DNA of 64,000 bases from Brevundimonas sp. A19_0 (GTDB taxonomy: Bacteria > Pseudomonadota > Alphaproteobacteria > Caulobacterales > Caulobacteraceae), in the NCBI RefSeq assembly GCF_017744255.1, contig NZ_JAGHQP010000001.1, positions 1 to 64,000 on the forward strand, in the 5' to 3' direction. The translations under genes and the position numbers were made by a program. Under the pieces are notes generated by a model, which saw nothing but the letters and a program-made list of their open reading frames with translations, was not told where the DNA came from and made no database searches. Positions 17,711-47,470 of this stretch are shown here, piece after piece (positions within the stretch are counted from its first letter, which is position 1; each line of letters opens with the position of its first letter).

Positions 17711-19813
17711 TCAGACCTGGCCCAGCGTGCGCAGGCGGGCGCGGGGGTGGATCTCGTTCTGGCTCATCACGACCGTCTGGCCCCGGAAGCGCTCGATGAT
17801 CGAGCGCACATAGGGGCGCACCTGCGGGCCCGTCAGCAGGACGGCGGTCTCGCCCGCCATGGCCGCGCGCTCGAACACGTCGCGCGTCGCGCGGATAAAG
17901 TCCTGCAGGCGTGAGGGCGCCATGGCCAACTGCTTGTCCTCGCCCTGCCCCACCAGACTTTCGGCAAAGGCCTGCTCCCATTCGGGCGACAGGGTGACGA
18001 TCGGCAGGGCGCCATCCTCGCCCTTGTGCTGCCAGCACAGCTGGCGGGCCAGCCGCGAGCGCACATGCTCCACCAGGATCGTCACCGAGCTGGTGTGAGG
18101 TGCCGCCTCGGCCAGACCTTCCAGGATGGCGGGCAGGTCGCGGATCGAGACCTTCTCCTTCAGGAGCGACTGCAGCACCCGCTGCAGGGTGGTGACGGTG
18201 ACCGAGCCGGGGATCAGGTCCTCGACCAGCTTCTTCTCCTCGCCCTCCAGACCGTTCAGCAGCTTCTGCACCTCGGCATAGGACAACAGCTCGGCCATGT
18301 TCTCCTTGAGGATTTCGGTCAGGTGGGTGGTCAGCACGGTCGACGGGTCCACCACCGTATAGCCGCGGAAGGTCGCCTCCTCGCGCAGGGACTCGTCGAT
18401 CCAGGTCGCGGGCAGGCCAAAGGCCGGCTCCTTGGTGTGCTCGCCGGGCAGCTCGACCTGACGGCCTGCCGGATCCATGGCCAGCAGTTGCCCGAGGCGC
18501 ACCTCGCCGGTCCCGGCCTCCATCTCCTTGATGCGGATGGCATAGCCCTGGGTACCGAGCCGCATGTTGTCGAGGATGCGCACCGACGGCATGACGAAGC
18601 CGTACTCCTGCGCCAGCGAGCGGCGCAGCGCCCGGACCTGGTCCGTCAGACGGCGCCCCTCGAGATCATTGATCAGGGCCAGCAGCGAATAGCCCAGTTC
18701 GATCTTGACCTCGTCGATGTTGAGGGCGGTCTGGATGGGCTCCTCGACATCCTCGCGGGGCTTGGTGGATTCGGCCGCCTCGACCGGTTCGGGCTTCAGC
18801 CGGGCCCGGCCCAGCCGCCAGGCCATGAAGCCCGCGCCCGCCGCCAGGGCGAAGAAGGGCAGCAGCGGCATGCCCGGGATCAGGCCGATCAGGGCCGAGG
18901 CCCCGGCCACCATGCCGAGGCTGACAGGGTTGGTGGCCAGCTGGCTGACGAGCGCCTTGTCGGCCGAGCCCTCAACGCCGGCCTTCGACACCAGAAAGCC
19001 TGCGGCGATCGAGATAATGATGGCCGGCACCTGGGTGACAAGGCCGTCGCCGATGGTCAGCTGCACATAGGCCGTTGCGGCCTCGCCGATCGGCATGCCG
19101 TGCTGCAGCGTCCCGATCAGGATGCCGCCGATGATGTTGATGAAGACGATGATCAGGCCGGCCACGGCATCGCCGCGCACGAATTTCGAGGCACCGTCCA
19201 TGGCGCCGAAGAAGGTGGATTCCTGCTCCAGCTCCTTGCGGCGGATCTTCGCCTGCGCCTCGTCGATCAGGCCCGCCGACAGGTCGGCGTCGATGGCCAT
19301 CTGCTTGCCGGGCATCGAGTCGAGGGTGAAGCGGGCCGAGACTTCGGCGATCCGGGTAGAGCCCTTGGTGATGACAACGAAGTTCACCACCAGAATGATC
19401 GCAAAGACGATGATCCCGATGATGAAGCTGCCGCCCATCATCAGGGCGCCGAACGACTCGATCACCTTGCCGGCTGCATCGCCCCCCTCGTGACCGCTGG
19501 TCAGCACCAGCCGGGTCGAGGCCAGGTTCAGGCCCAGACGATAAAGGGTCGAGACCAGCAGCACGGTCGGAAAGATGGCGAAGTCCAGCGGCTTCTTCAT
19601 CATCAGCGCCGTCATCAGGATCAGCACGCTGGAGATCAGCGAGATCGCCAGCAGCATGTCCATCAGGAAGGACGGGATCGGCAGGATCAGCAGCAGGATG
19701 ACGCCGATCACGCCGACGGCCATGCCGACCTCGCCGCGCGCGATCCAGCCCAGCATGTCCTTGCCCGAAGGCCGGGCCATGCCGTCCTTCATCATGACGG
19801 GGGTATCAGTCAT
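17711..19813 (-). CDS. flhA: Flagellar export apparatus protein FlhA
   Basis: Inner-membrane export gate of the flagellar type III secretion system, 700 residues as expected. The N-terminal half carries about eight membrane segments and the conserved cytoplasmic loop with STRIAEVSARFTLDSMPGKQMAID. The C-terminal half is the ring-forming cytoplasmic domain. A short charged linker separates them near residue 340. Its ATG at 19813 overlaps the end of the beta-lactamase gene by eight bases, so its translation may be coupled to that gene rather than directly to flbD. Last gene of the fliF operon in this window. Confidence 0.97.
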   Translation of the reverse strand: MTDTPVMMKDGMARPSGKDMLGWIARGEVGMAVGVIGVILLLILPIPSFLMDMLLAISLISSVLILMTALMMKKPLDFAIFPTVLLVSTLYRLGLNLASTRLVLTSGHEGGDAAGKVIESFGALMMGGSFIIGIIVFAIILVVNFVVITKGSTRIAEVSARFTLDSMPGKQMAIDADLSAGLIDEAQAKIRRKELEQESTFFGAMDGASKFVRGDAVAGLIIVFINIIGGILIGTLQHGMPIGEAATAYVQLTIGDGLVTQVPAIIISIAAGFLVSKAGVEGSADKALVSQLATNPVSLGMVAGASALIGLIPGMPLLPFFALAAGAGFMAWRLGRARLKPEPVEAAESTKPREDVEEPIQTALNIDEVKIELGYSLLALINDLEGRRLTDQVRALRRSLAQEYGFVMPSVRILDNMRLGTQGYAIRIKEMEAGTGEVRLGQLLAMDPAGRQVELPGEHTKEPAFGLPATWIDESLREEATFRGYTVVDPSTVLTTHLTEILKENMAELLSYAEVQKLLNGLEGEEKKLVEDLIPGSVTVTTLQRVLQSLLKEKVSIRDLPAILEGLAEAAPHTSSVTILVEHVRSRLARQLCWQHKGEDGALPIVTLSPEWEQAFAESLVGQGEDKQLAMAPSRLQDFIRATRDVFERAAMAGETAVLLTGPQVRPYVRSIIERFRGQTVVMSQNEIHPRARLRTLGQV

Positions 19814-20675
19814 GTCCGGCCGCCATCAGAACGCGATGGACAGCCTCGGCCAGAATGACCTCGCCCTCGGCGAAGTCATCCGTCTCCGGCCCCTGATAGT
19901 AGGCCACGACATATACAGGCTGGTCGCGCGGCGGCAGCATCAGGCCGATGTCATTGACCGGGCCGGCGTTGCTGGTGCCGGTCTTGTGCGCAACGGTCCA
20001 GCCGAGCGGGGCGGCGGCCTTCAGCCGGTTCGGTCCTGTGGGGGTTTCGATCAGCCAGCTCATCAGCCGCTCGCGAGACGGCGGCGTCAGCAGGGTCGCA
20101 TCGGGGGACAGCACCCGGCCGAGGTTGGCGGCGGTTTGCTCGGGCGTCGTCGTGTCGAGCTCATCGCCCACGCCGTTCAGGGCCGGTTCCAGCCGGTCCA
20201 CACGCGTGACCGTATCGCCGATCCCGCGATACCAGGCCCGCCAGGCATCCAGACCGCCCATTTCGCGGATCAGGATATTGGCCGCCGGGTTGTCGCTCAG
20301 TTCGACCGTGGCCTTGCACAGCGCTTCAACCGACAGCGTCCTGCCCACCGCATCGCCGGTCACCGGCGCGTGGAAGACCATGTCGGCCTCGGTGATCGGG
20401 ATCTCCCGATACAGCGGCATCTCGCCCCGGTCAGCCTGTTGCAAGACGGCAGCCGCCAGAAACAGCTTGAAGGTGGAGCAATAGGTGAAGCGCTCGGACG
20501 TGCGCCAGCCGACGGTATCGGCGCCCGCGACCTGAATACCCAGCCGACCGCCCTGACGGGCTTCCAGATCGCTCAGGTCGATTCCCGTGCCCCCACCTTG
20601 CGGCGAGGTCCCGGCCCCGGTGCAGCCGGTCAGGGTGAGCAGGCCCAAGCCCGTCAGAACGCTTCTGCGATCCAC
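19806..20675 (-). CDS. bla: Class A beta-lactamase, probable lipoprotein
   Basis: 289 residues with all class A motifs: Ser67-x-x-Lys70 in TYCSTFK, Ser127-Asp-Asn, Glu163 in RLEPALN, and Lys231-Thr-Gly in HKTGTSNAG. Cys66 directly before the nucleophile recalls class A carbapenemases, but the partner Cys after the KTG motif is absent, so the disulphide of KPC-type enzymes cannot form. The N-terminus MDRRSVLTGLGLLTLTGC has a twin Arg and a lipobox (LTGC, Cys18), suggesting Tat export and a lipid anchor. Start is GTG 20675, preceded by GGGAGCGAG. It lies 11 bases after flbD and overlaps flhA, inside the flagellar operon, where no such gene is expected. Spectrum cannot be told from sequence. Confidence 0.93.
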   Translation of the reverse strand: MDRRSVLTGLGLLTLTGCTGAGTSPQGGGTGIDLSDLEARQGGRLGIQVAGADTVGWRTSERFTYCSTFKLFLAAAVLQQADRGEMPLYREIPITEADMVFHAPVTGDAVGRTLSVEALCKATVELSDNPAANILIREMGGLDAWRAWYRGIGDTVTRVDRLEPALNGVGDELDTTTPEQTAANLGRVLSPDATLLTPPSRERLMSWLIETPTGPNRLKAAAPLGWTVAHKTGTSNAGPVNDIGLMLPPRDQPVYVVAYYQGPETDDFAEGEVILAEAVHRVLMAAGHD

Positions 20676-20686
20676 GCTCTCGCTCC

Positions 20687-22060
<1,374 letters not shown>

Positions 22061-22096
22061 GGGTCTTCTCCTCTAAATCTCACTGTCGGTCGCCGA

Positions 22097-22429
22097 TCAG
22101 GCGCCCGCGTCCTCGGTCTTGATGATTTCCGTCATGGTCACGCCCAGCCGGTCCTCGACGACCACCACCTCGCCGCGCGCCACCAGTCGATTGTTGACGA
22201 AGATGTCGATCGCCTCGCCGACCTTGCGGTCCAGCTCCAGCACCGAGCCGCTGGTCAGCTTCAGCAGCTGGGCCACCGACATCTGGGACTTGCCCAGCAC
22301 GGCCGAGATGTTCACCGGCACATCGAAAACGGGCGCCAGGTCGCTGGCGGACTTGTCCACGCTGTCATCGGCCGAGACGGGCTGGACCCCGTGATCGAAT
22401 TCCTCGAGCGGCAGATTGTCGACGGTCAT
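22097..22429 (-). CDS. fliN: Flagellar motor switch protein FliN
   Basis: C-ring component (110 residues), SpoA-like fold. The core VNISAVLGKSQMSVAQLLKLTSGSVLELDRKVGEAIDIFVNNRLVARGEVVVVEDRLGVTMTEI region (about residues 38-102) carries the family pattern VxVxxxLGxxxxxxxxLLxLxxGSVxEL. The N-terminal 35 residues are acidic and variable, as usual. ATGA overlap with flbE (22426-22429) suggests translational coupling; 36 bases separate it from flbD. Confidence 0.95.
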   Translation of the reverse strand: MTVDNLPLEEFDHGVQPVSADDSVDKSASDLAPVFDVPVNISAVLGKSQMSVAQLLKLTSGSVLELDRKVGEAIDIFVNNRLVARGEVVVVEDRLGVTMTEIIKTEDAGA

Positions 22430-23085
22430 GAGTTCATCCCTTCGGACGAGGCTGAGGGTTCGGTTCGGTCGGCGGCCAGCGCCCGCGCAACGGCGGCTTC
22501 CAGCCGGGCATAGGCTTCGGCCGCATCAAAGGCGGCCCGGCCATCGGCCCATTCGAGTTCAAAGGCGGCGGTCGCCAGACCCGGTTCGTCGCGGAAGCGG
22601 ACGGCACCGGCATAGCCCGTGCTGGCGCACAGCGCTTCGATCTCGCTGCGGGCCGCCTCATCCAGACCGGCCATGGCGACGACCAGTCGCGGCGAGGCGT
22701 CGATCTCGCGGCCCAGTTCCTCCAGCGCTGCCTGCAAGGCCGCGTGGGGCATGCGCTCCAGCGCGGTCGAGGCCAGCGCCCGGCCGGTCGCCAGCGCCAG
22801 TTCGGCCGTCTGCTCGCGATAGGTCTCGATCACCCCTCCGAGGCGCGGCAGGCTGGCGGCCAGCGCGGCGCTCAGGTCGGCGATGGCCTGCGCCCGACGG
22901 CTGTCCAGTTCGGCCAGGGCCTGGGCCCGGCCCTCGCTGCGAGCATCGGCCACCAGGGCCTCGACTTCGGCCGGTGAATAGGCCCGCTTGACCGGCTGCC
23001 AGGCCGAGGCGCGCACGACATTGCCGGTCGCGTCGAACTCGGTGTCGAAGGAGAAGGGCTGGGCGGGGATGGGGGCTACGGTCAT
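22426..23085 (-). CDS. flbE: FliH-like flagellar assembly protein FlbE
   Basis: 219 residues, Ala- and Glu-rich, with a long helical middle (residues about 35-110, YSPAEVEALVADARSEGRAQALAEL onward) followed by a compact C-terminal domain. This is the layout of FliH/FlbE, the stator-like regulator of the FliI export ATPase. Sequence similarity in the family is low, so identification leans on position between fliG and fliN, the order known from the Caulobacter fliF operon, and on the helical pattern. Overlaps neighbours at both ends (TGATG with fliG, ATGA with fliN). Confidence 0.85.
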   Translation of the reverse strand: MTVAPIPAQPFSFDTEFDATGNVVRASAWQPVKRAYSPAEVEALVADARSEGRAQALAELDSRRAQAIADLSAALAASLPRLGGVIETYREQTAELALATGRALASTALERMPHAALQAALEELGREIDASPRLVVAMAGLDEAARSEIEALCASTGYAGAVRFRDEPGLATAAFELEWADGRAAFDAAEAYARLEAAVARALAADRTEPSASSEGMNS

Positions 23086-24119
23086 CAGTAGATCAACTCG
23101 TCATCGCCGCCCTGGCCGACCAGCATTATCTCGCCCTTGGCGGCCAGATCCTTGGCGACCTGGACCATGGCCATCTGGGCGGCATCGACGTCCTTGAGGC
23201 GCACCGGCCCCATCGACTCCATGTCCTCGCGCATGATCTTGGAGGCGCGCTCGGACATGTTGCCGAAGAACAGTTCGCGCAGGGACTCGGACGCCCCTTT
23301 CAGCGCGAGGGCCAGCTGGTCCTTTTCGACCGCGCGCAGCAGGGTCTGGATGCCGCCGGGGTCCAGCTTGGCGAGGTCCTCGAACACGAACATCAGGGCG
23401 CGGATGCGCTCGGCAGCCTCGCGGTTGCGTTCCTCCAGCGCGCCGATGAAGCGCGCCTCGGTCTGGCGGTCGAAGCTGTTGAAAATGTCGGCCATCATCT
23501 CGTGGCTGTCGCGCTTGGAGGTGCGCGCCAGGTTCGACATGAATTCGGTCCGCAGGGTCTGTTCGATCTTGTCGAGGATTTCACGCTGGACCGGCTCCAT
23601 GCGCAGCATGCGCTGGACGCACTCCATGGCGAAGTCCTCGGGCAGGGCCGTGAGAACGCGCGAGGCGTGGTCCGGCTTGATCTTCGACAGGACCACCGCG
23701 ACCGTCTGGGGGTATTCGTTCTTCAGATAGTTGGCGAGGACCGCTTCGTTCACATTGCCCAGCTTGTCCCACATGGTCCGGCCGGCCGGACCGCGGATTT
23801 CCTCCATCAGGCCTTCGACCCGATCGGGCGGCATGAAGGAGGACAGCAGTTTCTGGGTCTGCTCGAAGCTGCCCATGACGGCGCCAGAGCCGGTCATGCC
23901 CGACACGAACTCCAGCAGCAGCTCCTCGACGACGGTCGAGCTGACCGTGCCCAGCGAGGCCATCGCCTGCGAGATTTCCTTGATCTCGTCGTCGTCCAGA
24001 CCTTCCCACAGGCGGGTGTGGTCTTCGCCCAGCGACAGCAGCACCACGGCGGCCTTTTCCGGCCCGGTCAGCTTGCGGGCGTCGTCGACCGACGGCTTGC
24101 GGGCGACCATCCGTGCCAT
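23085..24119 (-). CDS. fliG: Flagellar motor switch protein FliG
   Basis: 344 residues, all three FliG domains. The N-terminal part begins [30 protein letters not shown]. The middle has the EHPQ-like site as [14 protein letters not shown]. The C-terminal domain has the torque helix with charged residues ([36 protein letters not shown]). It links the MS ring (FliF) to the C ring and contacts the stator. The start ATG overlaps the fliF stop as TGATG, and the stop overlaps flbE the same way. Confidence 0.97.
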
Positions 24120-25792
24120 CAGCCTTCTTGCACCCAGTTACGGAGGATCGAGGTCGACTCCTCCGGGTGCCGCTCCACGAACTCCGAGACCTTCTTGACC
24201 GACGACGCCTTCACCTGGCCCTCGATGCGGGCGATATCCAGGCGCTGCTCCATGTCGCTGGGACCGGTCAGCTGGCCGGCCGCAGCCTGACCCGACGCAC
24301 CGACCGGCATGGTCTGCACGGCGGTCACACCATTGCCGCCCGCTCCGGCGATCGCCGGCACACCGGCCGCGCCGCCGCCGGTCGTGGCCTTCAGCAGCGG
24401 CCGCAGCACGAACAGGATCAGCAGGATCCCGGTGATCAGCAGCACCAGCAACTCGATGCCGCGCATCATGTCGCTCCTGGTGAAGTCGAACAGGCCATTG
24501 CCTGCCTCGGTCCCGCCACCCGGCGCCGACTGACGGTTGAATTCGACATTGCTGACCCGGACCACATCGCCCCGCTCGGCGCTGAAGCCCACGGCCGCCT
24601 TCACCAGCTCCTCGATCTGGGCGATCTGTTCGGGCGAGCGCGGGGCATAGGTGGGCTCGGCGCCATCTTCACCGGGCGTCCAGACGCCATCGACCGCCAC
24701 GGCCACCGCCAGCTTCTTGACCTCGCCCGGTTCACGGACGGTGGTCGTGGTGGTGTTCGAGATTTCGTAGTTGGTCGTCTCCGTCAGGTCCTCACGGGTC
24801 GAGCCCTCGGCCACCATGCCCGCTTCTTCGCCCCCCGGAATGTTCTCGGTCGCGGTCGCGCCTGCCAGCGACTGGCCGGTGGTGTCCTGCGAGGTCGAGC
24901 CGTTGGTGGCCATGGAGCGCACCACCTGGCCATCGGGGTCGAAGCGTTGCTCCTGGGTGGTCGAGCGGCTGTGATCGATCTCGGCGGTGACCTGCACCCG
25001 CGCGGCACCCGGGCCGACGATGCCCTGCACCACGTCCATGACCCGGGCCTGCAGCTGGGCCTCGGTGGTCGCTTTCATCCGGTCGGCGCTGGCGCCCGAG
25101 AAGCCGTCCTCGTCGCCGCCGGCCGCCAGCGTCCGGTTGGTGTCGTCCATCACCGTGACGCGGGTCGGCTTCAGGTTCGGCACACTGGACGCCACCAGCG
25201 AGCGAATGCCGCGGATCTGGTCGGCGGTCAGGTCGCGCCCGCCCAGCCCCACCACGACCGACGCCGTGGGCTCGGCCGCCTCGGCCTGGAACAGGGCCCG
25301 CTCGGGCAGGGCGATCAGCACGCGCGCCATGGTGACCCCGCGCAGGGTCATGATGTTGCGCGCCAGTTCGCCTTCCAGCGCGCGTTTGGCGTTCAGGTTC
25401 TGCTGGAACTCGGTCTGGCCCAGCACCGACTGGTTGTCGAAGATCTCGTAGCCGACCGAGCCACTGGTCACGATGCCCTTGCCGGCGACCAGCATACGGG
25501 CCGTGCCCACCTCGTCGCGGCTGACGAAGATGGTCGAGCCGTCGCCGCGCGACGAATATTTGATGCCCGCCGTATCGAGGGCCGAGGTGATCTCGGCGGC
25601 CTCGCGCAGGTCCAGATTGGAATAGAGCAAGGCATCAGGGGCCTGGCCGATGCGCAGCATCAGCACTACGAGCACCGCAGCCACCCCGGCGGCAACCCCC
25701 GCCAGGGCAGCCAGCCGCCCGATCCCAAACCTTTGCACCGCCGCTGAAAAGCCGCCCACGCGCGCCTCTACACCCCTACTCACAGGCGACAC
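24119..25792 (-). CDS. fliF: Flagellar MS-ring protein FliF
   Basis: 557 residues with two membrane segments (about 26-46 and 435-455) flanking a large periplasmic part. Recognisable stretches include [24 protein letters not shown], the [10 protein letters not shown]-like segment, and the C-terminal FliG-binding region ending [10 protein letters not shown]. First gene of the operon. The annotated GTG at 25792 is only 31 bases from a CtrA-box-like site, which would put transcription start close to the start codon. Other in-frame GTGs at codons 4, 8 and 12 are possible true starts. Confidence 0.95.
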
Positions 25793-25822
25793 GCCCGCTA
25801 GGCAGAAAGTGCCGCCCCCATA

Positions 25823-25838
25823 GTAAACGGCGCGTTAA
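25823..25838 (-). promoter_or_regulatory. Candidate CtrA-binding site upstream of fliF
   Basis: Minus strand reads TTAACGCGCCGTTTAC, i.e. TTAA-N7-TTTAC against the CtrA consensus TTAA-N7-TTAAC (one mismatch). In Caulobacter the fliF operon is a class II flagellar operon activated by CtrA, so position and orientation fit. A second AT pair (TTAA 25859-25862 and TTAAC 25869-25873) has a six-base spacer and is less convincing. Confidence 0.6.
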
Positions 25839-25882
25839 GAGACGGGGCAGAAAGGTGCTTAAGCGGGTTTAACCCTGCCCGG

Positions 25883-26971
25883 TCATGCGGCCCGGGCGCG
25901 CGCCTTCTCGTCGGCCGCAGCCTGGATGCGGGCCTCGGCGATGGAGTCGGCGACCTCGTGCGTGGGGCGTTGCTCGCGCTCCGAACGCTCCAGCACCTCG
26001 CCCAGGGTCTCCATCAGGCGGGCCAGCTTGCCCTCGACCCAGGCCGGGTCATAGGCGCCGCCGCTGTTCCGCGCCGCCATTTCCGACGCCACATTGATGA
26101 TGCCGCCGCCGTTGACGACATAGTCGGGGGCATACAGCACGCCGCGCTCGAACAGGATGCGGCCGATCTCGGGCGTAGCCAGCTGGTTGTTCGCGGCGCC
26201 GACCACGGCCTTGGCCGACAACCGGTCCAGGGTTTGCGGGTTCAGCGTCGCGCCCAGCGCGCAGGGCGCATAGATGTCGGCCTTGACGTCATAGATGGCG
26301 TCCGGAGCCACGACCTCGGCGCCGGTGCGGGCCGCGACCTCTTCCAGCAGGCCGGTGTTGACGTCGGTCATCACCAGTTTGGCGCCAGCCTTGTGCAGCT
26401 TGTCCGCCAGATAGCCGCCCACGTGGCCGATGCCCTGCACCGCAACAGTCAGGCCGGTCAGGTCGTCCTGCTTCCACAGGCGGCGGGCAACCGTCAGGGT
26501 CGAGCGGAACACGCCCTCGGCGGTCACGGGGCTGGGATCGCCCGAGCCTTCCTTGCCGCCCGACAGGCCGACGACATATTCGGTTTCCTTGCGGGCCTCG
26601 GCGATATCCTCGACCGAGACGCCGACGTCCTCCGCGGCGTAATAGATGCCGCCCAGGGTGTTGATGGCGCGACCGAAAGCCTGGAACAGCTCCGGCGTCT
26701 TCTGGGTCCGGCTGTCGCCGATGATCACCGACTTGCCGCCACCCATCTCCAGATCGGCCACGGCATTCTTGTAGCTCATGCCGCGCGACAGACGCAGCAC
26801 GTCCTCCAGCGCCTCGGCGGCCGTGGAGTAATTCCACATGCGCGTGCCGCCCACGGCAGGACCGCGCGCGGTCGAGTGCACCGCAGCAATAGCTTTGAGG
26901 CCGGTCTTTTCGTCATAGAAGGCGTGCACGCCCTCATGGTTCGCGAACGACGGCGAATCGAACAGTGTCAT
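25883..26971 (-). CDS. Leucine/valine-type amino acid dehydrogenase
   Basis: 362-residue NAD-dependent oxidative deaminase of the Glu/Leu/Phe/Val family, converting branched-chain amino acids to 2-oxo acids. The catalytic-Lys segment MSYKNAVADLEMGGGKSVI and the Rossmann motif GIGHVGGYLADKL are visible, as is the C-terminal PDYVVNGGGIINVASE. I use ATG 26971 (MTLFDSPSF) with AAAGGG upstream; the longer frame to 27040 has no family match. It would act with the branched-chain aminotransferase (35511-36386) and isovaleryl-CoA dehydrogenase in branched-chain amino-acid use. Leu versus Val versus Phe preference is not decidable here. Confidence 0.9.
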   Translation of the reverse strand: MTLFDSPSFANHEGVHAFYDEKTGLKAIAAVHSTARGPAVGGTRMWNYSTAAEALEDVLRLSRGMSYKNAVADLEMGGGKSVIIGDSRTQKTPELFQAFGRAINTLGGIYYAAEDVGVSVEDIAEARKETEYVVGLSGGKEGSGDPSPVTAEGVFRSTLTVARRLWKQDDLTGLTVAVQGIGHVGGYLADKLHKAGAKLVMTDVNTGLLEEVAARTGAEVVAPDAIYDVKADIYAPCALGATLNPQTLDRLSAKAVVGAANNQLATPEIGRILFERGVLYAPDYVVNGGGIINVASEMAARNSGGAYDPAWVEGKLARLMETLGEVLERSEREQRPTHEVADSIAEARIQAAADEKARARAA

Positions 26972-45671: not shown

Positions 45672-47255
45672 TCAGTTGGCCAGACGCCTCAGAAACGAAG
45701 GGATTTCCAACTCATCCTCCTCGGAGGGTTCAGGCTCCGGGGTCTTGAGGGCCGAGTTTCCCGACAGACGCATCGAGCGGGGCTCATTGTGCGTCTCCGA
45801 ACGGGCTTCCGGCGCATAGGGGGCCGGTTCCGGCTGGGCGCGCTTTCGACCGAACAGGCTCCAGCCCGACTTGCGGTGATGATCGCGATCGTCCCACTCG
45901 GGCTCGGGGGCAGGCTCCGGCTGGCGCTCGGCGCGCTGCGGCGTCGGCTCCATATAGAGGTCGCCCTGGACCGGACGGGTGGTGGCCCGCGGGTTCAGAT
46001 CGGCTTCGTACTCCTCGACCCAGGGATCGACGATCGGGTCGAGCGTGCGCGGCTCGGCGGCCTTGATCACCGGCTCGGCGGGGGCAGCAGCCGGCGCGGG
46101 GCGCGGCTCAATGCGCGGCTCGGGGGCGCGGGCCTGTTCGAAGGTCGGGGTAACCGGCGCCGGTTCGGCCGAACGGATCACGGGCTCGGCGGCGCGGCGC
46201 GGCTCGCGGTCGGCCATGGTTGGCGCAGGCGCCGGGCGGGTGGCCGGCGTGGGGCGCGACAGGGTGGACGGCGGGGTCTGGGCGACCACGCCCTCGTCCA
46301 TGCCGGTGGCCACGACCGACACGCGGATCTTGCCGTCCAGAGCCGGATCGAAGGCCGCACCGAAGATGATGTTGGCGTCGGGGTCGACCTCGGCCGAGAT
46401 GGCGTTGGCGGCCTCGTCGACTTCCAGCAGGGTCATGTCCATGCCGCCGGTGATGTTCACCAGCACGGCCTTGGCTCCCTTCAGGCTGGTCTCGTCCAGC
46501 AGCGGGTTGGCGATGGCGTTCTGGGCGGCCATCAGGGCGCGGTCGTCACCCTCGGCCTCGCCCGTGCCCATCATGGCCTTGCCCATTTCGCTCATCACGG
46601 CGCGGACGTCGGCAAAGTCGAGGTTAATCAGGCCCGGCAGGATCATCAGATCAGTGATCGAGCGCACGCCCGAGTGCAGGACCTGGTCGGCCATGCCGAA
46701 GGCGTCCGAGAAGGTCGTCCGCTCATTGGCGACCCGGAACAGGTTCTGGTTCGGGATGACGATCAGGGTGTCGACATAACGCTGCAGCTCGGCAATGCCG
46801 GCCTCGGCCAGGCGCATGCGGTGACGGCCTTCGAAAGTGAAGGGCTTGGTCACGACGCCGACAGTCAGGATATTGCGGTCCCGCGCGCATTTCGCGATCA
46901 CGGGCGCGGCGCCGGTCCCCGTGCCACCGCCCATACCGGCGGTGATGAAGACCATATGGGCGCCTTCCAGATGGGTGGCGATCTCGTCAGCTGATTCCTC
47001 GGCGGCGTTCATGCCGACCTCGGGGTGGGCGCCCGCACCCAGGCCTTGGGTAATCGTTTCGCCCAGCTGGATACGCCGGTCGGTCTTGGCGAAGCTGAGG
47101 TGCTGGGCGTCGGTGTTGGCGACGACAAAGTCGACCCCCTCGAGGCCCGCGTCGATCATATTGTTGACGGCATTGCCGCCCGCACCGCCGACGCCGAACA
47201 CGACGATCCGCGGCTTCAATTCCGTAGCTTCAGGACGCACCAGCGACAGCGACAT
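45672..47255 (-). CDS. ftsZ: Cell division GTPase FtsZ
   Basis: 527 residues. Tubulin-like core with the GTP signature GGGTGTG (109-115), synergy-loop stretch and NxxDFADV; the core ends near residue 320. A linker of about 190 residues rich in Pro, Ala, Glu and Arg follows, then the C-terminal peptide [12 protein letters not shown] that binds FtsA and other partners. The long linker is typical of Caulobacterales. Start ATG 47255 with GAGGTCGG upstream; the longer frame has no support. Unlike the standard order ftsQ-ftsA-ftsZ, a TonB receptor gene lies between ftsA and ftsZ, so ftsZ must rely on its own promoter in 47256-47470. Confidence 0.98.
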
Positions 47256-47312
47256 GTGATTTCCGACCTCTAATCCGAGCCCGCTCCGTCCAACCGAACG
47301 CCAATCCCCCCC

Positions 47313-47339
47313 GAATCGCATTGGTTATGAGCGGGTTAA
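47313..47339 (-). promoter_or_regulatory. Candidate CtrA and CcrM sites in the ftsZ promoter region
   Basis: Minus strand 47339-47324 reads TTAA-CCCGCTC-ATAAC, one mismatch from the CtrA consensus TTAA-N7-TTAAC. GAATC at 47313-47317 is a GANTC site for CcrM. In Caulobacter ftsZ transcription is repressed by CtrA and needs GANTC methylation, so both are plausible 60-85 bases upstream of the start codon. The CtrA match is moderate and half-sites occur by chance. Confidence 0.4.
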
Positions 47340-47470
47340 TAGAACACCCGTAAGCCTTAACAGGTGGTTACCGCATAGACTGAGTCGGGGAACGGGCCAG
47401 AGGGGGCAAACGCTCCCGGTGCCCATATATTTCGACAGGGTCCCGAGGGTTCGATCGGCCATGCCTGCAA

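Follow-up and report, generated by a model that had tools for sequence, protein, structure and literature searches.

The window analysed here is a stretch of 64,000 nucleotides from Brevundimonas sp. A19_0, whose genome is 2.92 Mb in 47 contigs. Its minus strand carries, in the order of reading, fliF (24119–25792; Pfam YscJ_FliF), fliG (23085–24119; Pfam FliG domains), an open reading frame assigned to the fliH (flbE) position by its place only and with no Pfam match (22426–23085), fliN (22097–22429; Pfam FliMN_C), flbD (20687–22060; Pfam Sigma54_activat and HTH_8, with the name taken from its context), a class A beta-lactamase gene, bla (19806–20675), and flhA (17711–19813; Pfam FHIPEP). A motif scan places a CtrA-type site, TTAA-N7-TTTA with one mismatch, on the same strand before fliF (25824–25838). 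Between flbD and bla there is a spacer of 11 bases (20676–20686, minus strand), and bla and flhA overlap by eight bases (19806–19813, minus strand); an earlier, sequence-only reading of this DNA had given the same two distances, and the coordinates agree with it.

The bla gene begins with GTG and encodes 289 amino acids, which match the NCBIfam model NF033103 (bla_class_A) with 239.5 bits, against a cut-off of 200, and Pfam PF13354 with 136.4 bits, against a cut-off of 22. The class A motifs are all present, namely SxxK as STFK (Ser70 and Lys73 in class A numbering; 20466–20477), SDN (130–132; 20289–20297) and KTG (234–236; 19977–19985), as are the deacylation residues Glu166 and Asn170 within EPALN (20175–20189), all on the minus strand. 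With both models above their cut-offs and the catalytic motifs intact, the class A assignment made in the earlier reading holds, and Bla is, judging from these matches, a member of a known enzyme family; the D,D-carboxypeptidase domain Peptidase_S11 is not among its two Pfam matches. The second PF13354 match in this genome (L002) was considered as a class A enzyme and rejected, since its Peptidase_S11 and SPOR domains point to a D,D-carboxypeptidase. A class B beta-lactamase candidate is found elsewhere in the genome (123 bits; cut-off 100).

By the Tat and lipobox motif rules, codons 1–18 (20622–20675, minus strand) are predicted to form a Tat lipoprotein signal, with the twin arginines at residues 3–4 and a lipobox, LTGC, ending at Cys18, and Bla is predicted to be a Tat-exported envelope lipoprotein. 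The lipobox is found by pattern in 115 of the 118 full-length Bla copies from the genus, in 114 of them together with the arginine pair, and it is missing from all 10 of the copies checked in other genera.

The flbD-bla-flhA junction in Brevundimonas and its family

We located PF13354 and FlhA in 131 Brevundimonas genomes. In 123 of these the bla domain precedes flhA on its strand at a distance of 84–756 bp; each of the 123 junctions was read, and flbD is upstream of bla in every one of the 121 genomes that could be checked, the loci of G001 and G062 being cut by a contig end. Synteny in relatives, which had been proposed as a check, thus confirms that a bla gene inside the flagellar operon is a genus-wide trait of Brevundimonas. 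The denominator of 131 includes G064, G068 and G117, three genomes (77, 75 and 83% complete, respectively) that did not show the junction. The bla frame is broken in G088 and short in G328, and in G013 a run of N covers the end of flbD.

Of the 121 automatically chosen bla starts, 113 fall within −40 to +20 bases relative to the flbD stop. bla overlaps flhA in 94 of the 123 loci (by 4 bases in 50, by 8 in 39); in 27 it stands at least five bases before flhA, with a maximum of 662, so tight coupling is not universal. The 662-base gap, in G106 (locus L121), holds an antisense HicA/HicB-type toxin-antitoxin pair (Pfam).

Five genomes of the genus (G063, G090, G094, G109 and G114) have an flbD-flhA junction without bla, and as they have the flagellar genes all the same, bla is dispensable for the operon. 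A search of these five genomes with the class A model gave no match in four and only 28 bits in G090, while a second full-length class A match outside the junction was found in only 2 of the 131 genomes (G018, above the cut-off, and G058, below it), from which we conclude that the gene lives in one place. A second FlhA-family gene, 49–53% identical to the query stretch, is present in five of the 131 genomes (G013, G014, G023, G032 and G057) and may point to a second export system, flagellar or related.

The catalytic residues are invariant wherever the copies span them. S130, D131, N132, E166, N170, K234, T235 and G236 are kept in 123/123 genus copies, and S70 and K73 in 120/120, the copies of G001, G062 and G088 not covering these two positions; all ten residues, E166 and N170 included, are likewise kept in 10/10 bla copies from other genera.

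Outside Brevundimonas, the FlhA locus was read in 106 genomes of the family, from 226 drawn. flhA lies within 400 bp of flbD without bla in 83 of them, bla is beside flhA in 14 (genera g5, g6, g10, g12, g13, g19 and g22), with flbD upstream in 13 of the 14, and the junction is of another kind or undetermined in the remaining 9. In L087 (G143) and L110 (G169), both of genus g14, the flbD-flhA junction contains genes for a 6-O-methylguanine DNA methyltransferase and a diacylglycerol kinase instead. Genus g21 gave no FlhA match in 14 of the 16 genomes drawn, so that this member of the family would seem to be largely non-flagellated.

Among the best 80 of 568 named Bla matches, 17 have flhA in their flank (14 labelled Brevundimonas and three MAGs with other labels), and the other 63, two of which are labelled Algimonas and Henriciella, have no flhA within the flank of up to 4 kb. 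The MAG L220, labelled Bordetella sp., contains a Brevundimonas flbD-bla-flhA locus (FlbD and FlhA identity about 84%), and to judge from this similarity its label is probably wrong. L222, labelled Xanthobacteraceae bacterium, carries a Bla relative (55% identity) with a LysR-type gene lying divergently upstream, unlike the flagellar-site copies.

Our first Bla tree, built with 32 genus copies and omitting six family loci that lacked a usable bla match, suggested that bla had been captured independently in different genera. This did not stand, as constraining all flagellar-site copies together with L217 and L222 to be monophyletic gave a likelihood higher by 15.46 (p-AU 0.659). A common origin of the tested flagellar-site copies is thus not rejected by the AU test, and we claim neither one origin nor several. 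L217 and L222, the nearest copies outside the flagellar site, fall with genus copies into one starred clade of the Bla tree, and an enlarged tree with four more copies, from which two distant rows were also dropped, gave no firm grouping of the flagellar-site copies. Mapped on the FlhA tree (26 genus and 102 other rows), the presence of bla requires at least 16 changes, 3 of them forced by starred branches, with gain and loss being indistinguishable.

Replacement of bla alleles at a constant place

For comparisons of identity we used 118 of the 123 genus Bla copies (at least 270 aa), the C-terminal part of FlbD and up to 460 FlhA residues. When FlbD and FlhA are 99–100% identical, Bla identity is 93.2–97.0% (33 pairs); when they are 98–99% identical, the Bla median is 93.6% and the minimum 46.9% (25 pairs). 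Overall, Bla falls below 65% in 83 of the 275 pairs with a flank identity of at least 94%, these pairs not being independent of one another. In the extreme pair, G021 and G084, FlhA is 98.3%, FlbD 98.8%, FliN 100% and FliH 91.8% identical, with Bla at 46.9%, and both genomes have an 11-base spacer and a GTG start. At the DNA level, in 60-base windows, identity between these two is 92–100% across the final four of flbD, 80% where the window spans the spacer and signal peptide, 38–77% in the rest of bla and again 92–100% in flhA; the drop in identity is confined to the bla ORF.

One could ask whether this is merely fast evolution of bla, which outpaces flbD and flhA in vertical pairs as well, but we regard that as very improbable. 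In the replaced pairs the dS of bla is 1.0–1.5 against 0.14–0.57 in the flanks (1.14 vs about 0.15 for G104-G107; 1.21 vs 0.27–0.36 for G024-G018), whereas in vertical pairs it is close to that of the flanks. Moreover FliH, whose divergence across the genus is similar (median identity 58%, compared with 61% for Bla), tracks the identity of FlbD and FlhA better, with a rho of 0.65 vs 0.37 over 433 pairs from the 30 loci that reach fliH, after one identical pair and one pair with insufficient overlap were dropped. This difference in rho stays between 0.24 and 0.32 in leave-one-out analysis, and 405 pairs give 0.62 and 0.25, in the same direction. Finally, the FlhA tree unites G000, G035, G084, G021 and G073, whereas the Bla tree sets G021 and G073 apart from the other three.

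The pairs with low Bla identity involve several groups, namely G021 with G073, G104, G106, and two sets opposed to each other (G011, G024, G047, G051, G054 and G112 against G016, G018, G022, G039, G061, G070 and G125–G128), so the replacement of bla happened more than once. Alleles of bla have been replaced in situ while the flagellar genes stay, that is, the place of the gene is stable and its allele variable. The likely agent is homologous recombination within the conserved flanks.

dN/dS was computed for 19 pairs. It is 0.07–0.21 for bla in seven close pairs without replacement (G000-G035, G000-G084, G024-G112, G016-G018, G061-G022, G125-G126 and G009-G055) and 0.13–0.50 in the remaining pairs. 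By these ratios bla is under purifying selection and kept as an enzyme, the work of which would be ordinary beta-lactam hydrolysis.

Probable transcription from the flagellar promoter, and alternatives

A CtrA-type site with at most one mismatch starts 47–69 bases before the projected fliF start in all 20 genus genomes whose DNA upstream of fliF was examined. Over the whole window, five CtrA-type sites were observed vs 0.51 expected by shuffling. Two of the five, with one mismatch each, lie at 47325–47371, just upstream of ftsZ (45672–47321, minus strand; Pfam Tubulin and FtsZ_C); ftsZ is a CtrA target in Caulobacter, and these sites serve to check the scan.

We scanned the 300 nt that precede bla in 118 genomes. 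Neither a CtrA-type site nor any sigma-73 or sigma-54 signal exceeding codon-order shuffles was found there, the scans relying on consensus motifs that a promoter inside flbD could escape. Likewise, a scan of 19600–26050, limited to a consensus of the E. coli type, revealed neither a sigma-70-type promoter nor a terminator-like site on the minus strand. The sequence-only reading had named a separate promoter and terminator around bla as what would speak against it, and the consensus scans turned up neither. A LysR query (one sequence, E 1e-10) matched in 0 of the 180 junction loci searched (133 carry bla), and at this junction bla appears to be without a neighbouring LysR-type regulator; matches to the same query are few beside non-flagellar bla copies too (19 of 63 named, 2 of 24 from the family). 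As neither a promoter nor a neighbouring regulator of bla is detectable, its transcription most likely starts at the CtrA-type promoter of fliF, along with that of the early flagellar genes.

Taken together, these observations lead us to an explanation that we think reasonably probable. In this view bla, the resident class A beta-lactamase gene of the genus, would occupy a fixed place as one cistron of a fliF-fliG-fliH-fliN-flbD-bla-flhA operon, being likely co-transcribed with the flagellar genes and translated next to flhA. Its product would hydrolyse beta-lactams and have no part in flagellum insertion. Through recombination anchored in its conserved neighbours flbD and flhA, the bla coding sequence would, more than once, have been swapped for a divergent homologue. 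The idea that bla is bound to flagellar transcription and translation finds indirect support: the overlaps with flhA, the CtrA-type site before fliF and the silence of the promoter and terminator scans speak for it, and the loci with bla at least five bases from flhA speak against tight coupling throughout the genus. That resistance may vary with the cell cycle is a good hypothesis; the enzyme may outlast its mRNA, and the genome has the class B candidate besides.

The main alternative for expression is that a promoter within flbD drives bla constitutively, so that the gene rides in the operon as a passenger, free of flagellar control. Promoters within coding sequence are hard to spot by consensus, and BlaA of C. 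crescentus is reported, in the available text of PMC13046382, to be constitutive within a methionine operon, possibly through an internal promoter. We nevertheless find this unlikely for bla, given the absence of sigma-73, sigma-54 and CtrA-type signals above shuffles in the 118 genomes. A promoter hidden at the 3' end of flbD was looked for and rejected, as this end shows no clear excess of synonymous conservation and no consensus matches above shuffles; its synonymous value dips slightly only between codons −40 and −20, a stretch in which the protein, too, is at its most conserved.

As for function, the earlier reading had raised the possibility that Bla acts on cell wall fragments, and one might propose from its conserved place in a flagellar operon and its predicted nature as an envelope lipoprotein that it works on peptidoglycan, whole or in fragments, and in this way helps to assemble the flagellum. 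Production of a class C enzyme in E. coli altered flagellar gene expression, according to the part of PMC13170162 available to us, a link of another kind. This role seems quite improbable: all the class A catalytic residues, those for deacylation among them, are invariant, the junction exists without bla in the five Brevundimonas genomes and in most of the other-genus genomes (83 of 106), and divergent alleles swap while the flagellar genes stay constant. That the junction is an assembly error, a concern raised by the earlier reading and conceivable in an assembly of 47 contigs, can be set aside with near certainty, since matching junctions in 123 of 131 genomes include those of one-contig assemblies.

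Returning to bla as a resident hydrolytic enzyme of the operon, a more speculative extension, which we offer tentatively and would not bet on, is that flbD-flhA serves as a standing exchange site. The flanking genes would be landing pads, an incoming allele would inherit CtrA-driven expression, and protection would be supplied along with the flagellum to dispersing swarmers and renewed by swapping between species. What is observed is that nearly the whole genus keeps a class A beta-lactamase as one cistron in a core flagellar operon, without an adjoining regulator, and swaps alleles there. If co-expression is true, beta-lactam protection would be tied to motility and the cell cycle, making differences between swarmer and stalked cells directly testable, and the locus would illustrate how exchange between conserved neighbours can maintain and diversify a resistance gene on the chromosome.

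Comparison with known systems

Bla shares its domain, catalytic motifs and export signal with the chromosomal class A beta-lactamases (NF033103), among which the best-scoring subfamilies are L2, HBL, BOR and PEN-Bcc. Its scores stay well short of the curated cut-offs for those named subfamilies (198.7 of 540 bits for L2, for example), and it differs from these enzymes in being encoded in a flagellar operon with no LysR match alongside. In LysR/AmpR-controlled bla loci, by contrast, a divergent LysR-type gene adjoins bla, and no LysR match was found at the flagellar junction in 180 loci. Among solved class A enzymes, the best match, by sequence only, is 4c6y_A (BETA-LACTAMASE; E 2.9e-59), which covers residues 33–278 with the catalytic motifs, and several GNCA lactamases come next.

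Within the genus, a class A 'penP' of B. brasiliensis, listed with 299 aa and 60% identity in a table of PMC10269605, is similar in class and length and, going by that table, probably represents the same locus; the available text mentions no flagellar setting for it. C. crescentus, of the same bacterial family, offers a parallel in BlaA, which the accessible portion of PMC13046382 describes as an intrinsic beta-lactamase in an operon of unrelated genes; it differs from Bla in being an unrelated metallo-beta-lactamase, encoded in a methionine operon. None of the open-licence papers searched by title and start of abstract links bla with flhA, flbD or a flagellar operon.

The closest likeness in regulation is to the CtrA-controlled early flagellar operon of C. 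crescentus, where, as stated in the available text of PMC3930126, CtrA acts as activator of the early flagellar genes and FlbD as repressor of fliF. The Brevundimonas operon likewise combines early genes and FlbD with a CtrA-type site before fliF, and differs in the extra beta-lactamase cistron between flbD and flhA. Two features, neither of them found in the open-licence literature searched, make this locus unusual: a beta-lactamase gene is fixed in a flagellar setting with no regulator beside it, and its alleles are swapped at that site.
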